Of a stretch of DNA of 64,000 nucleotides, positions 5,387-61,444 are shown piece by piece. Every line of letters starts with the position of its first letter. Position 1 is the stretch's first letter. Position numbers and translations under genes: made by a program. The notes under the pieces were generated by a model. That model was not told where the DNA came from. It did not search any database and worked only from the letters and a program-made list of their open reading frames with translations. The DNA comes from Variovorax paradoxus (lineage in GTDB: Bacteria; Pseudomonadota; Gammaproteobacteria; Burkholderiales; Burkholderiaceae_C): assembly GCF_009498455.1 (NCBI RefSeq), contig NZ_CP045644.1, forward strand, positions 1,643,001-1,707,000. Direction: 5' to 3'.

Positions 5387-6961
5387 ATGAACACCATGGA
5401 AATCGAGTTCAAGTTCTGCATCCCCCCCGACCGCCTGAAGGCCGTCGATACCGCATTGCGGCGCGGCGCCGTCGTGCGCACGCGCCTGCAAGCCCGCTAT
5501 TTCGACACCGCCGACCAGCGCCTCGTCGCCGACGGCATGGTGCTGCGCCTGCGCAAGGAGGGCCGGCGCTGGGTGCAGACCGTCAAGGCCGCCGGCGACA
5601 ACGCGCTGCACCGGCTCGAGCACAACGTCGACCTGGGCACCGGCGCCGCCGCGCCCGCCATCGACCCTGCGCGCCACGCCGGCACGCCCGTCGGCGAGCG
5701 GCTGGCCCGCCTGCTGCAGCCAGCCGATGGCAATGCGGTGCCGCTGGTCGAACGTCAGTCGACCGACATCGTGCGGCTCACGCGCGACCTGCGCGTGAGC
5801 GGCCCGGGCGGCGCCGTCGTCGAGATGGCGCTCGACGTCGGCAAGGTCGTCGTGCACGCGGGCACGCCGGCGCAGCGCACCTCGCCCGTGTGCGAGCTGG
5901 AGCTCGAACTCAAGAGCGGCGACGTGCAGGGGCTCGTGGCGCTCGCGCGGCGCTGGTCGCAGCAGCACGGCCTGTGGTTCAGCACCGTCTCGAAGGCCGA
6001 GCGCGGCATGCGCCTGCTGGCCGAGCAGGAGACCGTGCCCGCCGTCAAGGCCGAAGCGCCGCGCTTCCCGGCCCACGGCCTCGATGGCCGCACCCTCCAG
6101 CAGGCCGTGGTCGCGTCGTGCCTGGGCCAGATGCTGCCCAACGCCAGCGAGATCGCCGCAGGCAGCACCGACGAAGAACAGATCCACCAGCTGCGCATCG
6201 GCATCCGCCGCCTGCGCACCGCGCTGCGCGAATTCGCGGGGCTCGACGCCGACACGAGCCGCTTCGACGCCGCCACCTGGGAGCCGCCGCTCGTCGACGC
6301 CTTCCGTGCGTTGGGCGATCTGCGGGATCGCGAACAGGTCGTGAAACTTGCGCAGCCGCTGCTGCGCGAGGCGGGTGCGCCGGAGGTCGATCCGTTGGCG
6401 GGTGATGCCGACGACAGCGCAGCAGCGTCGGCACTGACACCCGGCGACATCGTGCGTGCCGCGGCGTTCCAGGACGTGCTGGTGTCGCTGATCGGCTTCA
6501 CTGCCGCCACGCCGTCGTCGACGGGGTCTGCGCCGTTGGCCGCCGACGAGGCCCGCCAGCTGCTGCGCGAACGGCTCCAGCGCCTGCACAAGCAGTCGGT
6601 GCGCGACGGCGAGCGTTTCGAATCGCTCGCCACCGAACACCAGCACCGCGCACGCAAGCGGCTCAAGCGTTTGCGCTACCTGGCGGAGTTCGTCGCGCCG
6701 TTGTTCGTGGAGACGGACGGCGGCAAAAAGAAGAAGGACGCGGCCGAGCGCTACCTGAAAGCCTTGCGCCCCGCACAAGACGCGCTGGGCGAGTTCAACG
6801 ACGAGGCGGTGGCGCTCGCGCTGTACCGCGAGGTCGCATCGCGCGACCCGCGCGCGTGGTTTGCGGTCGGCTGGTTCAGTGCGCGCCGCGCAGGGAGGGC
6901 GACGGCGTGCCGCAAGGCGCTGGAAGAGATCGGCGAGGCGCCGAGGTTCTGGAAGAAGTGA
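5387..6961 (+). CDS. CYTH and CHAD domain protein
   Basis: 524 residues. The N-terminal CYTH domain (~1-210) starts with the ExExK signature EIEFK (residues 5-9) and has alternating charged strands that form a triphosphate-binding tunnel. The C-terminal CHAD domain (~225-524) is helical, with conserved His and basic residues (HQLRIGIRRLRTALREF and RARKRLKRLRYLAEF). CYTH enzymes hydrolyse triphosphate compounds, and CHAD domains bind polyphosphate, so a role in polyphosphate metabolism or granule binding is expected. It is a single gene, and the start has a purine-rich region AGGGAGAAGAAGAG upstream. Confidence 0.92.
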   Translation: MNTMEIEFKFCIPPDRLKAVDTALRRGAVVRTRLQARYFDTADQRLVADGMVLRLRKEGRRWVQTVKAAGDNALHRLEHNVDLGTGAAAPAIDPARHAGTPVGERLARLLQPADGNAVPLVERQSTDIVRLTRDLRVSGPGGAVVEMALDVGKVVVHAGTPAQRTSPVCELELELKSGDVQGLVALARRWSQQHGLWFSTVSKAERGMRLLAEQETVPAVKAEAPRFPAHGLDGRTLQQAVVASCLGQMLPNASEIAAGSTDEEQIHQLRIGIRRLRTALREFAGLDADTSRFDAATWEPPLVDAFRALGDLRDREQVVKLAQPLLREAGAPEVDPLAGDADDSAAASALTPGDIVRAAAFQDVLVSLIGFTAATPSSTGSAPLAADEARQLLRERLQRLHKQSVRDGERFESLATEHQHRARKRLKRLRYLAEFVAPLFVETDGGKKKKDAAERYLKALRPAQDALGEFNDEAVALALYREVASRDPRAWFAVGWFSARRAGRATACRKALEEIGEAPRFWKK

Positions 6962-6992
6962 CGGTGTTGCTGTCGCACCGTCGGCGCTGACA

Positions 6993-7829
6993 TCAGGTCG
7001 AGAGGCCCAGGCTCAGCTGGGCGCCCGGCACGGCTGGGTCGATCTGCCTTCCTGCGAGTTTCTTGGCGGAAGCTCCAGCGACCCATGAAAAGAAGCTCAT
7101 CCAGAACAGCACGGCACTCACGCCGAACAGCTTGACAGACGACCAGAATTGATCGGCAAGCGTGCGCTTGAGAAAGGCATCGGCGCCGCTGTCCGTGAGG
7201 ATCGTGCAAAGGATGCCTACTTCCTGCTCAGTGAATCCACTTCGTTGCGCGTTGGCGCTGGGAGGGCGTGTGCAGTCCGTGGCCTTCAACGATTTGGGGC
7301 CAAAAGGAAGGATCGAACCGAGACTCCCGACCTGTGTGGACGTCGCAAAGAAATGCCGCTGTGTCGCGTTGAGGGTCATGACGGTTCGGTCGAGAAACAG
7401 ACTGCCGAAACTCAGCGCGGCGACAAGCAGCCACCAGAACAGTCCTGCGGCCCTCAGCTTTTGAGTGAAGCTCGACGGAAGCTTGTCTACTTTGACCTGC
7501 CGGGCGTCCGGATCGAAGAAATCACCGCACAGGCGCAGACGGTACATCTGCACATCATTCAGCTTCGTCCAGCGAATGAGTTCATGGGCCTTCTCGAGCG
7601 AGGAAACGGGAACGCCCGCCAGGATCCGAAACGAGATGAAGCTCGCCTCTTCCTCGGCGAACGCCCGGACTTCGGGGTCGGCAATTTCTTGCTTCCCACG
7701 AACAAACTGCCAAAGCCGGTGAACGACGACCTGCCGTGATCCTGCGCGCAGGATCGCCCAGACAAACGCAAACGCAATCAGGGCTGGCGGCAGGAGGCCC
7801 AGAAATCCGGAAACACTGGTGAGCTCCAT
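6993..7829 (-). CDS. Uncharacterised membrane protein
   Basis: 278 residues. Hydrophobic segments lie near residues 8-27, about 130-150 and about 230-255, so probably three membrane spans, with a cytoplasmic-looking segment FAEEEASFISFRILAGVPVSSLEKAHELIRW between the first two. Base composition is lower in GC than its neighbours, and codon use is more mixed, which hints at acquisition. It is isolated, between the CYTH-CHAD gene (convergent) and slyD (18 bp upstream, same strand). I do not recognise the family and infer no function. Confidence 0.7.
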   Translation of the reverse strand: MELTSVSGFLGLLPPALIAFAFVWAILRAGSRQVVVHRLWQFVRGKQEIADPEVRAFAEEEASFISFRILAGVPVSSLEKAHELIRWTKLNDVQMYRLRLCGDFFDPDARQVKVDKLPSSFTQKLRAAGLFWWLLVAALSFGSLFLDRTVMTLNATQRHFFATSTQVGSLGSILPFGPKSLKATDCTRPPSANAQRSGFTEQEVGILCTILTDSGADAFLKRTLADQFWSSVKLFGVSAVLFWMSFFSWVAGASAKKLAGRQIDPAVPGAQLSLGLST

Positions 7830-7847
7830 CGGGTGCGCGGCTGCGTC

Positions 7848-8324
7848 TTAGTGATGGTGCCCATGCGCCCCATGCACATGCCGATGCTCAATCTCCACCG
7901 GCAGCGCCGCGCGCACGTCCGTCACCTGCAGGCTGAACTTCAGCGCCTTGCCGGCCCAGGGGTGGTTGCCGTCGAGCAGCACGACCGGGCCTTTAATCTT
8001 GGTCACGGTGAACACGTGCTCGGTGCCGTCATCGAGCCGGCCCTGCAGCTGGCCGCCGACCTTCACGCCGGGCGGGAACTCGGTCTTGGGAATGGTGCGC
8101 ACCAAGGCTTCGTCGCGCAGGCCGAAGGCGTCTTCGGGGGCGAGGTTCAGCGTGGTCTGGAAGCCCTTTTCCTGGCCGTCGAGCGCTTGCTCGATCTTGG
8201 GCAGGGTGTTCTCGTAACCGCCATGCAGGTAGGCCATCGGCTCGGGGCTGGCTTCGATGAGCTTGCCCTGGGCATCGGCGACTTTGTACTTGAGGGTGAC
8301 GACGGTGTCTTTTTCGATTTTCAT
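7848..8324 (-). CDS. slyD: FKBP-type peptidyl-prolyl isomerase SlyD
   Basis: 158 residues. The FKBP domain is interrupted by an insert-in-flap (IF) domain: the FKBP part starts KDTVVTLKYKVADAQG, the IF region contains APEDAFGLRDEALVRTIPKTEF, and the last FKBP strand carries DGNHPWAGKALKF. The C-terminus is His-rich (HRHVHGAHGHHH), the metal-binding tail that delivers nickel to enzymes such as hydrogenase or urease. It is a cytosolic chaperone and prolyl isomerase. Only 21 bp separate its start from the upstream nuclease-like gene, so its native promoter appears to have been displaced or replaced. Confidence 0.95.
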   Translation of the reverse strand: MKIEKDTVVTLKYKVADAQGKLIEASPEPMAYLHGGYENTLPKIEQALDGQEKGFQTTLNLAPEDAFGLRDEALVRTIPKTEFPPGVKVGGQLQGRLDDGTEHVFTVTKIKGPVVLLDGNHPWAGKALKFSLQVTDVRAALPVEIEHRHVHGAHGHHH

Positions 8325-8345
8325 AGTTGATGGTACGGCTTAAGC

Positions 8346-9056
8346 TTAACTTTGATAGGAATCAAGGGAGTCAAAGTGTCGCGCAAGATTTGACAAAACA
8401 TCGCTCGCTTTAAGTCCGCTAATGGATTGGCATATCGAATCCAAAGACTTGACCCAGAATGCTCCCGTTCTGGGGTTGCACAGCCCAATGCGGTCAAATT
8501 CCAAAGATCCACTGGCATATGCCAAGGTTGAATAAACCAGTAGTTGCCGTATGTCGGAAATTCGAAACGCTCTGGCGCCCGCTTTTATTTCATAAAGGCA
8601 GCCTGAGGAGATTATGTCACCCTCGGCTGCGCCGAGTATTCCGCAACCAAGAAATTTCGGGCGAAGTACGTCGCCAGGTTTTGCTGGAAAGGTGTCTAAC
8701 AAATTGCTGGCGATCGCAGAGGCTTCTTGAATGCAAGTTGCGCTTACGTCTGAAGCGTCCATTGCGCTCGGATAAGTAAATCTATTTATGTAGGCAATTG
8801 TGCTTGGGATCGAATTGTCTATAGCGTTGATGATGGATGTTCTACGCTTTGACATCTCCTCATTTCGCGTGAGACAAAATGCTGAAAAAGCGAGTTCGTT
8901 GACAAAACCCCGTAGTCCCGTATTTGTTTGCGTTGATATGGCGGGATGAATTTGATGAAGGAATAGATTTTCTCGACGCCAGTAGCTATCCCCTAGCGGC
9001 ATCACTTCGCGCCACACAGATGTATAGCTCGAAATAAATTTGTGCTCTGATATCAC
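8346..9056 (-). CDS. PD-(D/E)XK nuclease-like protein, partner of the reverse transcriptase
   Basis: 236 residues, AT-rich relative to the chromosome. I see a PD-(D/E)XK signature: Asp147 in AAEGDII, then Glu156 and Lys158 in YEIKAG, followed by Gln171 in DIRQLLVYSTLAY and the strand IGLCNPRTGAFW. An earlier helix has Glu54 (GFVNELAFSAF). That is the catalytic core layout of restriction-endonuclease-like folds, so DNA or RNA cleavage is inferred, not shown. The start is GTG at 9054-9056, overlapping the TGA of the upstream reverse transcriptase gene (9053-9055) by 4 bp, so translation is coupled and the proteins probably act together. I do not recognise a named family. Confidence 0.75.
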   Translation of the reverse strand: MISEHKFISSYTSVWREVMPLGDSYWRRENLFLHQIHPAISTQTNTGLRGFVNELAFSAFCLTRNEEMSKRRTSIINAIDNSIPSTIAYINRFTYPSAMDASDVSATCIQEASAIASNLLDTFPAKPGDVLRPKFLGCGILGAAEGDIISSGCLYEIKAGARAFRISDIRQLLVYSTLAYASGSLEFDRIGLCNPRTGAFWVKSLDSICQSISGLKASDVLSNLARHFDSLDSYQS

Positions 9057-10807
9057 AAAATCACCTGCCAGGCGTCACCCTTTTTGGCTTTGGCGTCACC
9101 TGCCCATTTGAGTAGCAACTTATCGAATTCATTGAGGTCGCGTCGTATTGATTTTCGCCAGTGTTCTCCCTCATCTCCGAGAGTGTAAGAGCTTACGAGT
9201 AAAGCTCTGCGCTCCCAAATTGTCAAAGTAGAAAAACTTCGTCTGCAATTTGAAACCCAGTGATCTGCGCGACGCTGTGCCATCATAAGAATGATGTCTC
9301 GGCGAACCATCATGCTGTCGCTTCGTTTGAAAGCGGATGCCAGTAGTATTTCCGTTTCCTCAGAATTATCGGAGGCCAAGGTTCTTAAGGAAAACGCCAA
9401 ATTAGTTGGCACTTGCGTCACATATGAGTTATCGGTGATGAGATTTCGGAGCGTTTTGTAAAGTTCGTCTTTTACCTGTGGAGTCAATATGTCAATTAAG
9501 CCTCGACACAAATTCATTACAGAGGGGAAAATTGGATAAAGTAAATCAATGCTCTTCAAAAGAGACAACACCGCGTCGTTTTGCACGGCAGGAGCCAAAT
9601 GCTTGAGTGCTGAAATCAGGCGGCGCGTCAAACTTTCGTCAACTCTGCTTTTGGCAAGCTCTCTTCCAAGCATTCCAACAATATCAAAATTATCCAACTC
9701 TGAACGCAGTTGTTGATAATCGGATTCTGCGGTTGGAGAATATGGGTCATAGTAAACGCGCAGCCTTCGGAAGGCTCTTTCTTGCTCTTCGTCTTGGCTT
9801 TCTTCATTTTTTGTCTCGATTGAAAATTCCGAGGTTCCTAGGAATTCGGCTCTAGACATCACGCGAGTTTTTGCCTTTTGCAAAGACAGGCCTTCATTGT
9901 TTAGTAGAAGGCTCGTTAGATTGATTAGAGCGGTGTATGCTTCTTCTCGGCTGTTTGCGAATATCACATAGTCGTCGACAAATCGGCAAAACTTTATTTG
10001 CTCTCCGATTAGAAGGCGATCAATTCTGTTTAGTAGGATTTCACTCAGAATTCGAGAGGCGGGCCCTCCCACGGGCAACCCATAAGAGGCGCCACCAGAA
10101 ATGGCGCCCAGTATCTTCATTATGCGATTGCTTGCGCTTCGATTGTTTGTCGCAGCACTTAAGGCATTCTCAAGTCGATGATGATAAATTCGAGGATAAA
10201 AATCGGAGATATCGCAGCGAAGGACATAATCAAAACTCTTCACCATCTCGATAGATTTTTCTTGAAATTGGTGCCAGCCAATTTCCCGGTCAAATATTGA
10301 GTGTTTATCTTTTTGTGGGAGATGTCGGTAGGAGAAAACAATTTGATTCGAAACCCTTCGTTTCTCTAGGTCGCCAGCGATTGTGAGTGTCAAGGCAAGC
10401 AAATAAGCGTTCCATATCGGGTCAATTTGAGTTCCCCAGCGAAATCCGCTGTAACCTACGACCGATAAATCTTTGGAGCTTAATATGGGGATATCAGAAG
10501 AGGCTTTTTCAAAATCTGCGTCGATGTAAAAAAGAATTTTCTTAACATCGTCTGGGGCGTCAAAAAAAATGTGATTCTCTATCGGGAACGGAAAAATATC
10601 GGTGTCACCGAAATTTGCAATGTTGGATATTGCCAATTCTGCGGCGTCGCTGCTAATGATGGGCATTTTTATTAAAGTAAATGGAGATTTATAATTTTGG
10701 CGAAAGAAGATGTCGTGCGGGCTTAATTTGGGAGAATTTTCGGGGAATGAGGTTTCCGAGAGCCTGAAGAATTTTTCGTCGACAAGATATTGAGGCCGCC
10801 ACTTCAT
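9053..10807 (-). CDS. Reverse transcriptase of the Abi/DRT (unknown-group) type
   Basis: 584 residues, low GC. Motif A is YVLRCDISDFYPRI with catalytic Asp199; motif B is YGLPVGGPASRILSEI (242-257); motif C is CRFVDDYVIFA with Asp278 and Asp279, an FVDD version of the YxDD box; motif D is LSLQKAKTRVMS. There is no group II intron maturase or HNH domain. From about residue 365 the protein is all-helical with repeated helix pairs, like the alpha-repeat domain that replaces the thumb in Abi and defence-associated RTs (family knowledge). The ATG at 10807 has an AAGGAT about 14 bases upstream. The nuclease-like gene overlaps its stop. A defence role is inferred from type, composition and operon, not demonstrated. 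Confidence 0.88.
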   Translation of the reverse strand: MKWRPQYLVDEKFFRLSETSFPENSPKLSPHDIFFRQNYKSPFTLIKMPIISSDAAELAISNIANFGDTDIFPFPIENHIFFDAPDDVKKILFYIDADFEKASSDIPILSSKDLSVVGYSGFRWGTQIDPIWNAYLLALTLTIAGDLEKRRVSNQIVFSYRHLPQKDKHSIFDREIGWHQFQEKSIEMVKSFDYVLRCDISDFYPRIYHHRLENALSAATNNRSASNRIMKILGAISGGASYGLPVGGPASRILSEILLNRIDRLLIGEQIKFCRFVDDYVIFANSREEAYTALINLTSLLLNNEGLSLQKAKTRVMSRAEFLGTSEFSIETKNEESQDEEQERAFRRLRVYYDPYSPTAESDYQQLRSELDNFDIVGMLGRELAKSRVDESLTRRLISALKHLAPAVQNDAVLSLLKSIDLLYPIFPSVMNLCRGLIDILTPQVKDELYKTLRNLITDNSYVTQVPTNLAFSLRTLASDNSEETEILLASAFKRSDSMMVRRDIILMMAQRRADHWVSNCRRSFSTLTIWERRALLVSSYTLGDEGEHWRKSIRRDLNEFDKLLLKWAGDAKAKKGDAWQVIL

Positions 10808-10925
10808 TTTGTACGCCCAAGATCCTTAACGTGCATCGCGGACAAGCCTCTCTTTTAGAGCAGGCACCATCGATTCGTATCGCGTGACTACCCTGAAAGA
10901 CGCTGTTCAATCGCGACATCAGCTG

Positions 10926-11867
10926 TCAAGTCTCTTGGACTCGAAATATTCTTGGTAGCGTTTCTGTGTTGCCCGTCAGCCCTTCCATCACCATTTCAAT
11001 GAACGCCGACACCGCCCGCGGCAGGTGCTTGCGGCTCGGGTAGACCACGCTGAGCCCGTGCCCGGTGCGCTGGTACTGCGGCAGCACCGGCACCAGCCGC
11101 CCGGCCTCCACGTCGAGCCGTCCCATGGCCGGCGGCAACAGCGCGATGCCCAGGCCGGCGATGGCGGCCTTGCGCAATGCCTGCGCGGTGTTGCCGCTGA
11201 AGCGGCCGCCGACGTGCACTTCTTCTTCCTTCCCGCCGGGGCCGGTCAGGCGCCATGTGGTGCGGCCGCTGGGGTGGCCGGGGGTCACGCAGTCGTGGTC
11301 GGCCAGTTCGGCCAGTTCGGCCAGCGTGGCGGGCGTGCCGCGCGCGGCCAGGTAGGCGGGGCTGGCGACGAGGCCGTCGGTGCGCGGGCCGAGCAGCTGG
11401 CGGGCGACGTAGCCCGAGTCGGCCAGCGCGCCGCCGCGGAAGGCGATGTCGATCTGTTCGGCGATCAGGTCGGCCTTGGCGTCGCTGAGCACGAACTCGA
11501 TGCGCACCAGCGGGTACGCCGCCAGGAAGTCGGCCACCCAGGCCATGGGGAAGAAGTCGAAGAAATCGGCCGTGGCCGCCACGCGCACCCGGCCGCTGGG
11601 TTCCTGGCTGCCGGTGATGAGCGCCTGCCCGGCCTCGACCAGCCCGTCGACCGCCTCGGCGCAGCGCGCGTGAAAGTCCTGCCCGGCACTGGTCAGCGTG
11701 AGCTTGCGGGTCGAGCGCTGCAGCAGCCGGGTGCCGAGCTGCGCCTCCAGCTGCTGGATGCGCCGGCTCACGGTGTTGGGCGGCAGGCCCAGCCGGCGGC
11801 CGGCCTCGGCAAAGCTGCCGTGGCGCACCACCTGCACGAAGACGGCGATGTCGTTGAGATCGAGCAT
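10926..11867 (-). CDS. LysR-family transcriptional regulator
   Basis: 313 residues. The N-terminal winged helix-turn-helix carries FAEAGRRLGLPPNTVSRRIQQLEAQLGTRLLQRSTRKLTLT, and the effector domain follows with RVRVAATADFFDFFPMAWV. LysR proteins bind upstream of the divergent gene and respond to a small ligand. The divergent neighbour is the flavin reductase at 12007, its likely target. The last ~16 residues (after MEGLTGN) use AT-rich codons such as CTA, AGA and ATA, unlike the rest, as expected if the nearby reverse transcriptase island replaced the original 3' end. Confidence 0.9.
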   Translation of the reverse strand: MLDLNDIAVFVQVVRHGSFAEAGRRLGLPPNTVSRRIQQLEAQLGTRLLQRSTRKLTLTSAGQDFHARCAEAVDGLVEAGQALITGSQEPSGRVRVAATADFFDFFPMAWVADFLAAYPLVRIEFVLSDAKADLIAEQIDIAFRGGALADSGYVARQLLGPRTDGLVASPAYLAARGTPATLAELAELADHDCVTPGHPSGRTTWRLTGPGGKEEEVHVGGRFSGNTAQALRKAAIAGLGIALLPPAMGRLDVEAGRLVPVLPQYQRTGHGLSVVYPSRKHLPRAVSAFIEMVMEGLTGNTETLPRIFRVQET

Positions 11868-59185: not shown

Positions 59186-59695
59186 ATGAACCGTCGTTCT
59201 ATCGCACGCAATGTGCAAAAGGGTTTCACCCTGATCGAATTGATGATCGTTGTGGCGATCATTGGTATCTTGGCTGCTGTGGCGCTGCCGGCGTATCAGG
59301 ACTACACGGTCCGTGCTAAGGTTTCTGAAATTGTGCTGGCGGCTTCGTCTTGCCGTACTACCGTCACAGAAGCTGTTCAATCGACTTCTGCAACTACCTT
59401 GACCGCTGCAATGTTCCCGTGCGACGGCGGCGCTGCTTCGGGCGTGACGGTGTCGAAGTATGTCAAGAGCATCGCAGTCGATGCTAATGGCAAGGTCACC
59501 GTGACCTCACAAGGCATCTCTCAATTGACTGCGGGATCTGCCGATGTCTTGACGCTTGTTCCGTTGACCGATGCGACCACCGCCCTGGCTGCAGCCAGTG
59601 GAGCGGGTAAGACAATCTTCGCTTGGAGGTGCGGTGCTTCGTCGGATCTGACGACCATCCCTCCGAAGTATCTCCCAGGCTCTTGCCGCGGGTAA
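59186..59695 (+). CDS. pilA: Type IV pilin PilA
   Basis: 169 residues. The short leader ends in QKG, then [31 protein letters not shown], with cleavage by PilD before Phe and Glu5 for assembly. Cysteines at the C-terminus (WRCGASSD and GSCRG) form the D-region loop with SSCRTT. It is the major pilus subunit for attachment, twitching and DNA uptake. It is followed by a terminator and then by a putative pilin O-glycosylation gene. The pilin lacks a C-terminal Ser, so classic TfpO-type modification of a terminal Ser is unlikely. Confidence 0.94.
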
Positions 59696-59707
59696 TTTTT
59701 TAAATCT

Positions 59708-59739
59708 AAAAAGCGCTCCCTTGGGAGCGCTTTTTTTTT
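59708..59739 (+). terminator. Rho-independent terminator after pilA
   Basis: AAAAAGCGCTCCC, then TT, then GGGAGCGC followed by T10. It is directly before the next gene start. Confidence 0.93.
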
Positions 59740-59749
59740 GAAATCAAAC

Positions 59750-61444
59750 ATGCGGATGATGGCGTTCTTGGGGGGCATGCTGGCATTAAGCCTGCTAAAC
59801 CCGGAGCATTTCATGCCTTGGCCAGCTTTCGGGAATGATTTTTTGGCCGGAATTGGATTCTTTCCTCTTGGGGGTTATGTTATATGGAAGTGCACTGGCG
59901 TTCCAAAAATTGCGTTACCCATATTTTTTCTTTCACTGACCCCTTTGTTGCAGATGGCAACTGGAAGAATTTTATTCCTTGGTGACGGTTGGATTGCGTG
60001 GGTGTATATCTCTGCCGCGTTTATTTCCGTGGTTTCGGCGGCCAATTTTTTGCGCGAGAGCAAGTTGCAAAATCCAATGCTGGAAGTTCAGCCGCTGATT
60101 TTGGCGTTGATCGCTGCCTCCATTCTTTTGGTGGGGATTTCATTGATCCAATGGCTTGATTTTGATTTTCTTTCCGAGTTTATTGCGAAGCCCCAAGCCA
60201 AGGGGCGGTATGGCGCAAATCTAGCGCAGCCGAATCAGCTCGCAATTGTTCTTTTGTTAGGCGTGGCAAGCACCTTATTTTTGTTTGAAAATAGGATGTT
60301 GAATGCATGTTCGGCGACGTTGTTGGCTGCATTTTTGATACTTGGCCTCGCAATGACGCAGTCACGAATGACTTTTATCGCGTTGTTTTTTTTGTGGGTA
60401 TTGTTTTGGAGCCTTCGGCAACGAGCTTCGCTGCGTACGTCGGGGACATCAATTCTATTTTTAAGTGGATTTTTTGGTTTGATGATGTTCGCCTGGCCCT
60501 TGGTCAATGAGATCCTTTTATTGGGAGGGGCGCCTTCGTTGATTGGCCGATTGAGCAAAGACAGTCGCTTCGATATTTGGAAAAGCATGATTGACGCCGC
60601 TAGCCAATTACCATGGACCGGTTATGGTTGGGGGCAAATCCCTCTGGCCCAACAGGCAACGGCACTGGAGCATCCAGCAACATACGCATTTTTTGATTCG
60701 ACCCACAACCTCGGGCTAGATATTGCCGTTTCAGCAGGGCTGCCTGTGGCGGTGATATTTTCTTTATGGGTAATGTTGTGGTTCAAAAAGCAAATTGCCA
60801 ACTGTCGAGATCCTTTGTCATGGAGTGTCTTGCTGGCGGTAGGATTTGCTTTTTGTCATGCCATGGTTGAGTATCCACTAACGTATGCTTATATATTGCT
60901 GCCCATTTGCTTTTTCATGGGGGCATTAAGTCGAATTGATGTAATTAAGTTCGAAGTGAATGGAGAAAATCTACCCTCATTCCGATGGGGGATTGCTGGA
61001 GTCAGTGTACTTACATTGGTGGGTTTTGTTGTGGTTTCAAACGAATACATTCGATTTGAAAATGACTGGCGCCACACCCGGATGAAGATTTCCGGAATTT
61101 CCTCCGCTGAAGAAGGCTGGGAAGCTTATAGGCCAATTTTCTTGACTCAATTGCGGGATTATTCGGAGTTTGCGAGAACAGTACCCGAGCGGGGCATGAC
61201 AGAAGAGAAAATTCTCTGGATGAGTGAAGTCGCAAAGCGCTTTGGTCAACCATCGGTGCTGACAAGGTACGCGATAGCGGCAGCGCTAAACGGAAAGCCG
61301 GAGGCGGCAGCGCATTCATTGGCATTGCTATGCAAGACCCAGGCGCCTCGTGTCTGTGTCAAAGTTTTGGAAAATTGGCGGACGATTTCTTCTGATCCGA
61401 CTTACCCGGAGCTGAAATTGGTCGCACTTCCCGAATTAGGTTGA
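59750..61444 (+). CDS. PglL/Wzy-type O-oligosaccharyltransferase-like membrane protein
   Basis: 564 residues from the ATG at 59750. The TTG at 59738 has GGGAG from the terminator stem as a possible ribosome-binding site and is an alternative. It has about 10-12 hydrophobic segments and the Wzy_C-type loop STHNLGLDIAVSAGLP (60698-60745), then a C-terminal domain after the last span. Such proteins transfer sugars to pilin (TfpO, PglL) or ligate O-antigen. GC content is clearly lower than its neighbours, so acquisition is likely. It abuts a truncated J-domain gene at 61445. Confidence 0.82.
   Translation: MRMMAFLGGMLALSLLNPEHFMPWPAFGNDFLAGIGFFPLGGYVIWKCTGVPKIALPIFFLSLTPLLQMATGRILFLGDGWIAWVYISAAFISVVSAANFLRESKLQNPMLEVQPLILALIAASILLVGISLIQWLDFDFLSEFIAKPQAKGRYGANLAQPNQLAIVLLLGVASTLFLFENRMLNACSATLLAAFLILGLAMTQSRMTFIALFFLWVLFWSLRQRASLRTSGTSILFLSGFFGLMMFAWPLVNEILLLGGAPSLIGRLSKDSRFDIWKSMIDAASQLPWTGYGWGQIPLAQQATALEHPATYAFFDSTHNLGLDIAVSAGLPVAVIFSLWVMLWFKKQIANCRDPLSWSVLLAVGFAFCHAMVEYPLTYAYILLPICFFMGALSRIDVIKFEVNGENLPSFRWGIAGVSVLTLVGFVVVSNEYIRFENDWRHTRMKISGISSAEEGWEAYRPIFLTQLRDYSEFARTVPERGMTEEKILWMSEVAKRFGQPSVLTRYAIAAALNGKPEAAAHSLALLCKTQAPRVCVKVLENWRTISSDPTYPELKLVALPELG

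Follow-up and report, generated by a model that had tools for sequence, protein, structure and literature searches.

A DRT type 8 reverse transcriptase-nuclease pair in Variovorax paradoxus and its possible modes of action

Two overlapping genes in the 64,000-nucleotide stretch of the Variovorax paradoxus genome analyzed here (the window) almost certainly make up a complete DRT type 8 (DRT8) anti-phage system, as judged by sequence comparison. Both are minus-strand open reading frames (ORFs), one of 584 amino acids (aa) at 9053-10807 encoding a reverse transcriptase (RT) and one of 236 aa at 8346-9056 encoding its partner. The RT matched the PADLOC family Drt8 with 549.2 bits (E 3.1e-165, profile positions 3-491 of 493), the next-best family being RT_UG21 at 131.9 bits, and the partner matched PADLOC RTasPDDEXK with 203.2 bits (E 1.1e-60, positions 1-223 of 226). 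Because of these E-values, the conservation of the catalytic residues and the recurrence of the gene order in 79/80 loci, we do not regard the pair as a chance association.

A sequence-only reading of this DNA had proposed a new two-gene defence system that it could not place in any named DRT type. The pair does look unnamed because Pfam recognizes no domain other than RVT_1 in the RT and none in its partner, and because no NCBIfam model reaches its cut-off for either protein; a search of PDB sequences likewise gave no name for it. However, the PADLOC profiles were matched over nearly their whole lengths, which assigned the RT to Drt8 and the smaller protein to its known partner family, and on this ground the candidate was rejected, assignment to an established DRT type and partner being an outcome which that reading had itself named as a refutation; a genuinely new system outside all named DRT types is exceedingly improbable. 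The kind of RT, the PD-(D/E)XK partner, the gene overlap and the conserved pairing are the parts of the earlier interpretation that stood, while the novelty of the system did not.

The family itself is already known from the literature. A 2025 paper characterizes DRT8, among the DRT types, by its PD-(D/E)XK domain (PMC12596737), and two 2026 papers report family-level phage protection, for loci other than that of the window, and still call the mechanism not established or unresolved (PMC13213688, PMC13314766). An association of Cap17 with DRT8 is tabulated in PMC10952713. A literature search, outside which most subscription papers lay, found no statement of a DRT8 mechanism. The comparative anatomy presented here narrows the question, pointing to a predicted nuclease of the RecB/Cas4 type, a polymerase resembling those of DRT4 and DRT6, a near-universal NTGA overlap and the absence of any detectable dedicated RNA, and it reduces DRT8 function to a choice among effector, guard and processing roles.

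Genes, active sites and predicted folds

The pair has the following features, in window coordinates.

9053..10807, minus strand: DRT8 reverse transcriptase ORF, 584 aa, with a likelier start at M48
10211..10213, minus strand: RT motif A aspartate D199 (CDISDFYP), from the alignment rows
9971..9976, minus strand: RT motif C D278-D279 (FVDD), from the alignment rows
9056..9796, minus strand: predicted RT C-terminal helical repeat, about residues 338-584, from the structure model and structural alignments
9053..9056, minus strand: GTGA stop/start overlap of the RT and nuclease genes
8346..9056, minus strand: RTasPDDEXK partner, a predicted RecB/Cas4-like PD-(D/E)XK nuclease, 236 aa, GTG start
8532..8618, minus strand: nuclease active-site stretch with D147, E156-x-K158 and Q171-xxx-Y175

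The GC fraction over 8346-10807 is 0.446, compared with 0.662 for the whole window, in agreement with the low-GC operon described in the sequence-only reading. Every motif named there is also present: CDISDFYP and FVDD in the RT, and GD (146-147), EIKAG (E156, K158) and RQLL (Q171) in the nuclease. The junction of the two genes reads TTTTGTGATATC and contains the 4-base GTGA overlap. The host genome, a single 7.29-Mb contig, holds one Drt8 and one partner profile match. Among the matches listed, the best relatives were 75% identical to the RT and 55-56% identical to the nuclease.

The true start of the RT is probably M48 (window 10666), which would give a protein of 537 aa. This start is preferred because family similarity begins there in an alignment with 19 homologues chosen among 120 listed, because the lengths of those 120 are mostly 536-544 aa (P0105, with 682 aa, is a longer exception), and because residues 1-46 of the RT model have pLDDT values below 50.

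Conservation of the catalytic residues was assessed in 83 RT rows and 81 nuclease rows, which include the window copy (L001) and the duplicate L004/L082, whose tested flanks show no difference. Among the RT rows are, in addition, L080, which is cut by a contig end, the divergent L083 and only the best piece of the frameshifted L039 and L070, while the nuclease rows leave out L080 and L083. D199 was kept in 82/83 RT rows, the exception being the partial piece of L039, and D278/D279 in 82/83, the exception being L080. In the nuclease, D147, E156, K158, Q171 and Y175 were each kept in 81/81 rows; we take the combination of D, ExK and QxxxY to be the RecB/Cas4-type nuclease motif. Additionally, the alignment alone identified four highly conserved RT tyrosines (Y160, Y204, Y356 and Y364) as candidate protein-priming residues.

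In the RT model, helices run from residue 338 to 579 after the RT domain. The model aligned over its full length with DRT6, DRT4 and AbiK (residues 54-584 with DRT6 9wy8) at aligned identities of 12-17%. The RT is therefore predicted to be a class-1-type UG/Abi polymerase with a helical repeat, as the earlier description of an Abi/DRT-type enzyme with such a repeat in place of the thumb had anticipated. For the predicted structure of the 236-aa partner, the best Foldseek matches were Cas4-family ACE1 and Dna2, and the fold is that of the AddA, AdnA, RecB and MGME1 nucleases at aligned identities of about 6-17%; a second structural comparison was a re-ranking within Foldseek's list. Together with the RTasPDDEXK profile match, these results point to a RecB/AddA/Cas4-like nuclease and agree with the PD-(D/E)XK-like partner first suggested. 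The identity of the system, its near-constant pairing, its conserved active sites and its fold class are all read from sequence and structure prediction.

Conservation of the pair across bacteria

A contig scan with one genome per species yielded 92 related loci, the best 80 of which were used, and the titles of these include Proteobacteria, Firmicutes, Bacteroidetes, Actinobacteria, Cyanobacteria and Acidobacteria. The nuclease lies directly 3' of the RT in all but one of the 80; the contig of the remaining locus, L080, ends within the RT. The 4-base NTGA overlap was kept in 75/79 loci. RT and nuclease distances correlated (r = 0.84 over 77 loci after L001, L039, L070, L080, L082 and L083 were left out, with 0/999 permutations as high), and the RT and the nuclease had the same nearest neighbour in only 46/77 loci.

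Among 5,426 Escherichia coli genomes, 105 matched in a single place at least 80% of a query made up of both genes of a Citrobacter locus. Within the genus of the window, Drt8 profile matches were found in 25/101 genomes, only three of them full-length. The partner profile matched 2/398 phylum-sampled genomes, namely the window genome and, weakly, G499, where the 3.3 kb retrieved contained no RT-sized ORF.

Departures from the usual arrangement were also observed. In genome G025 (L083/L137) a Drt8-scored full-length RT has no partner in the stretch retrieved; in L137 (6037-11210) an LmuA-type gene whose C-terminal domain is of the ABC-three-component kind follows this RT at a distance of about 0.23 kb, and after it come two further ORFs, the last of which is 621 aa long and ATPase-like by eye. 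In Brenneria (L056, 7584-8180), an intact RT is accompanied by a nuclease gene truncated past the catalytic core, a natural variant that bears on effector versus guard roles. A distant DRT-like RT ORF of 827 aa in G216 (L124, 544-3027) has a hydrophobic stretch, possibly a membrane segment, and an extra C-terminal part.

Insertion site, mobility and genomic context

The pair lies within an insert between two conserved genes.

8325..10987, no strand: insert of low GC, bounded by conserved flanks; the gap is 97 bp in relatives G006 and G040
7848..8324, minus strand: left flank, FKBP-type peptidyl-prolyl isomerase-like gene (weak Pfam match, under the cut-off)
10926..11867, minus strand: right flank, LysR-family regulator, with flank similarity from about 10988

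Because flank similarity begins only at about 10988, the last codons of the LysR gene differ from those of relatives. The hotspot count used the 48 best of 97 genomes matching the left flank (at least 87% identity, own genome included), 1/48 of which lacked a right-flank match in the rows compared. Both flanks lay on one contig in 47 genus members; the FKBP-LysR gap was 83-106 bp in 31 of these and held an insert in 16, the window's included. The own-genome gap of 2,454 in this count was measured to a query beginning at 10800, and the conserved flanks give 8325-10987.

Nine proteins from eight of the 15 other inserts (L107-L121) were tested with PADLOC. Strong matches were to DRT3 (Drt3a and Drt3b, G026), a dCTPase (G081), NERD-UvrD C3a187 (G043) and PDC-S05 (G089), and the proteins tested from the inserts of G080, G100 and G084 had no PADLOC match. 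Of the remaining inserts, five measure about 5 kb and are host-like in GC, and two (G046, G079) are smaller. Within the genus, the intergenic region between the FKBP-like and LysR genes is an insertion hotspot and contains other defence systems as well. The DRT8 pair occupies it without companions, in a cassette of 2.66 kb acquired horizontally. The locus contributes to the genus a small chromosomal hotspot where compact defence systems are swapped in.

Mobile carriers of DRT8 were sought in several collections. No DRT8 match was found in 50,697 phage records at E 1e-30, while six loci lie in viral contigs and three plasmid records matched at E 1e-40, all about 28% identical; the partner is present in all six viral-contig loci and all three plasmid loci. 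Three of the E. coli loci were inspected. L139 and L140 carry DRT8 behind an integrase at tRNA-Thr, with psu, ogr/Delta-like and primase-helicase genes, in an element that is presumably P4-like. In L139 (4800-8342) DRT8 stands directly behind the integrase, and the RT start overlaps the end of the integrase gene. In L141, DRT8 is found beside an insertion sequence (IS)-interrupted integrase and a psu gene.

A survey of the nearest ORF on each side of 79 loci gave 148 ORFs, of which 138 were scanned; the ORF finder was mechanical and some of these are not genes. PADLOC at E 1e-10 matched 105 families among the 138 neighbours, none of them in more than 2/138, and the commonest Pfam family was Phage_integrase (5/138). 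Since no PADLOC family exceeded 2/138, the immediate neighbours of the 79 loci give no clear association with defence islands, a setting that the sequence-only reading had looked to.

Two side observations concern low-GC sequence elsewhere. Another insert of the hotspot (G020; L113, 352-2118) contains a low-GC ORF of 589 aa with a weak PADLOC match to PDC-S60 (E 2.6e-6), possibly an uncharacterised defence gene. The window itself has a second low-GC stretch at 59186-61444, with a pilin-like ORF and, after it, a membrane protein that, in our estimation, resembles an O-antigen ligase-type pilin glycosyltransferase.

Models of action and comparison with known systems

We favour, with a probability of roughly 0.6, a model in which untemplated RT synthesis is coupled to a RecB-like nuclease effector. 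The RT would make DNA without a template, probably with protein priming, in the manner of AbiK and DRT4, and would need no dedicated noncoding RNA (ncRNA), a component of the model that we consider quite likely. The translationally coupled RecB/Cas4-like nuclease would act on DNA ends or single strands. In a healthy cell the RT or its DNA product would keep the nuclease inactive, and phage infection would release or redirect it, leading to degradation of DNA. We give even odds to the nuclease being an effector controlled in this way by the RT or its DNA product. Both components draw on analogy with DRT1, which depends on both of its activities and has an effector under the control of DNA adducts (PMC13275509).

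The ncRNA component can be weighed against the sequences surrounding the genes, given that DRT2, DRT9 and DRT3 require a cis-encoded ncRNA (PMC12596737). Rfam gave 0 matches over 7800-11400 at E values up to 1. When 500 nt upstream and 400 nt downstream of the loci were compared by all-against-all blastn, using start codons that a script had guessed, many upstream matches begin at about the guessed RT start codon; the exceptions include L014/L077, L061/L063, L052/L055, L047/L057, L005/L033 and L009/L052. The ends of conserved blocks were compared in twelve locus pairs, and windows of 4-fold sites in seven. For L139 and L056, which are 75% identical, the conserved block opens 15 nt 5' of the annotated RT start and closes at the stop of the nuclease gene, and between the Pseudomonas loci L002 and L003 it covers essentially the two genes (5983-8308), with 36% identity at 4-fold RT sites. 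Between L139 and L140 the block extends 13 nt upstream and 40 nt downstream, and a separate 69%-identical block lies about 55-270 nt downstream. The corresponding stretch of L139 (8343-8644) matched 2,399/5,426 E. coli genomes, 98 of them with at least 80% of the query, versus 105 with the DRT8 pair, so this block is not DRT8-specific and appears to be mostly common mobile-element sequence; the downstream stretch of L140 matched 53 genomes. The comparisons L139/L047, L139/L129, L139/L131 and L139/L141 were uninformative because long surrounding stretches are conserved as well.

No window of 4-fold sites was protected across all seven pairs. As conserved blocks end close to the two genes in several pairs and no synonymous window is protected, the alignments argue against a DRT2/DRT9-style ncRNA at DRT8. 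Some closer pairs keep longer similar flanks (more than 100 nt downstream in L014/L077), and because of these shared flanks there may be a weakly conserved RNA at DRT8 loci.

The partner could also act as a guard, which we regard as unlikely. The RT would then constantly make toxic single-stranded DNA that its RecB-like partner destroys, and a phage block of RecB-type nucleases or shielding of DNA ends would let this DNA accumulate and stop growth. The AddA/AdnA/RecB/MGME1 fold of the partner and the resemblance of the RT to DRT4 and DRT6 are consistent with such a role, the near-constant NTGA overlap would help to balance polymerase and nuclease, and in DRT4 toxic single-stranded DNA builds up because the phage protein ORF55 protects the product against exonucleases of the host (PMC13314766). 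On the other hand, L083/L137 has a Drt8-scored RT with no partner nearby, L056 combines an intact RT with a truncated nuclease, and the task of a private nuclease could fall to host exonucleases, leaving no obvious need for one. The specific proposal that DRT8 is a self-contained guard circuit, with a co-translated untemplated polymerase and a private RecB-like exonuclease triggered by anti-RecBCD-type counter-defences or DNA-end shielding, is more doubtful.

Improbable in our view is a processing role, in which the nuclease would be a maturation enzyme rather than a toxin or a guard, trimming or releasing the protein-linked DNA of the RT to yield the active product. Enzymes of the ACE1/Dna2 type, the best Foldseek matches of the partner, trim DNA ends, and the active-site residues of the two proteins are conserved wherever the rows cover them. 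However, AbiK is a single gene and is not known to need such a trimming enzyme. The single-gene DRT4 has no need of one either (PMC13314766). The present data do not separate the effector, guard and processing models.

Compared with known systems, the window pair belongs with DRT2, DRT9 and DRT3 in a common antiviral RT family, although those need a cis ncRNA and none was detected for it. With DRT1, an RT-nitrilase whose DNA is template-free and protein-primed, it shares the plan of an RT combined with an enzymatic effector activity, but DRT1 is a single fused protein of class 3 with a nitrilase, whereas the window pair has a separate nuclease (PMC13275509). DRT6, DRT4 and AbiK match the fold of the RT over its full length, helical half included, and no conserved RNA was detected for the window pair; DRT4 is a single-gene system (PMC13314766), in contrast to the nuclease-partnered RT described here. 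The predicted nuclease has the PD-(D/E)XK fold and the D, ExK, QxxxY order of RecB, AddA, AdnA, Cas4 (ACE1) and MGME1, and differs from them in being a stand-alone 236-aa protein tied to an RT. With DRT8 itself (Drt8 plus RTasPDDEXK) the window pair shares the gene order, the active sites and near-full profile matches, with no difference of substance found.
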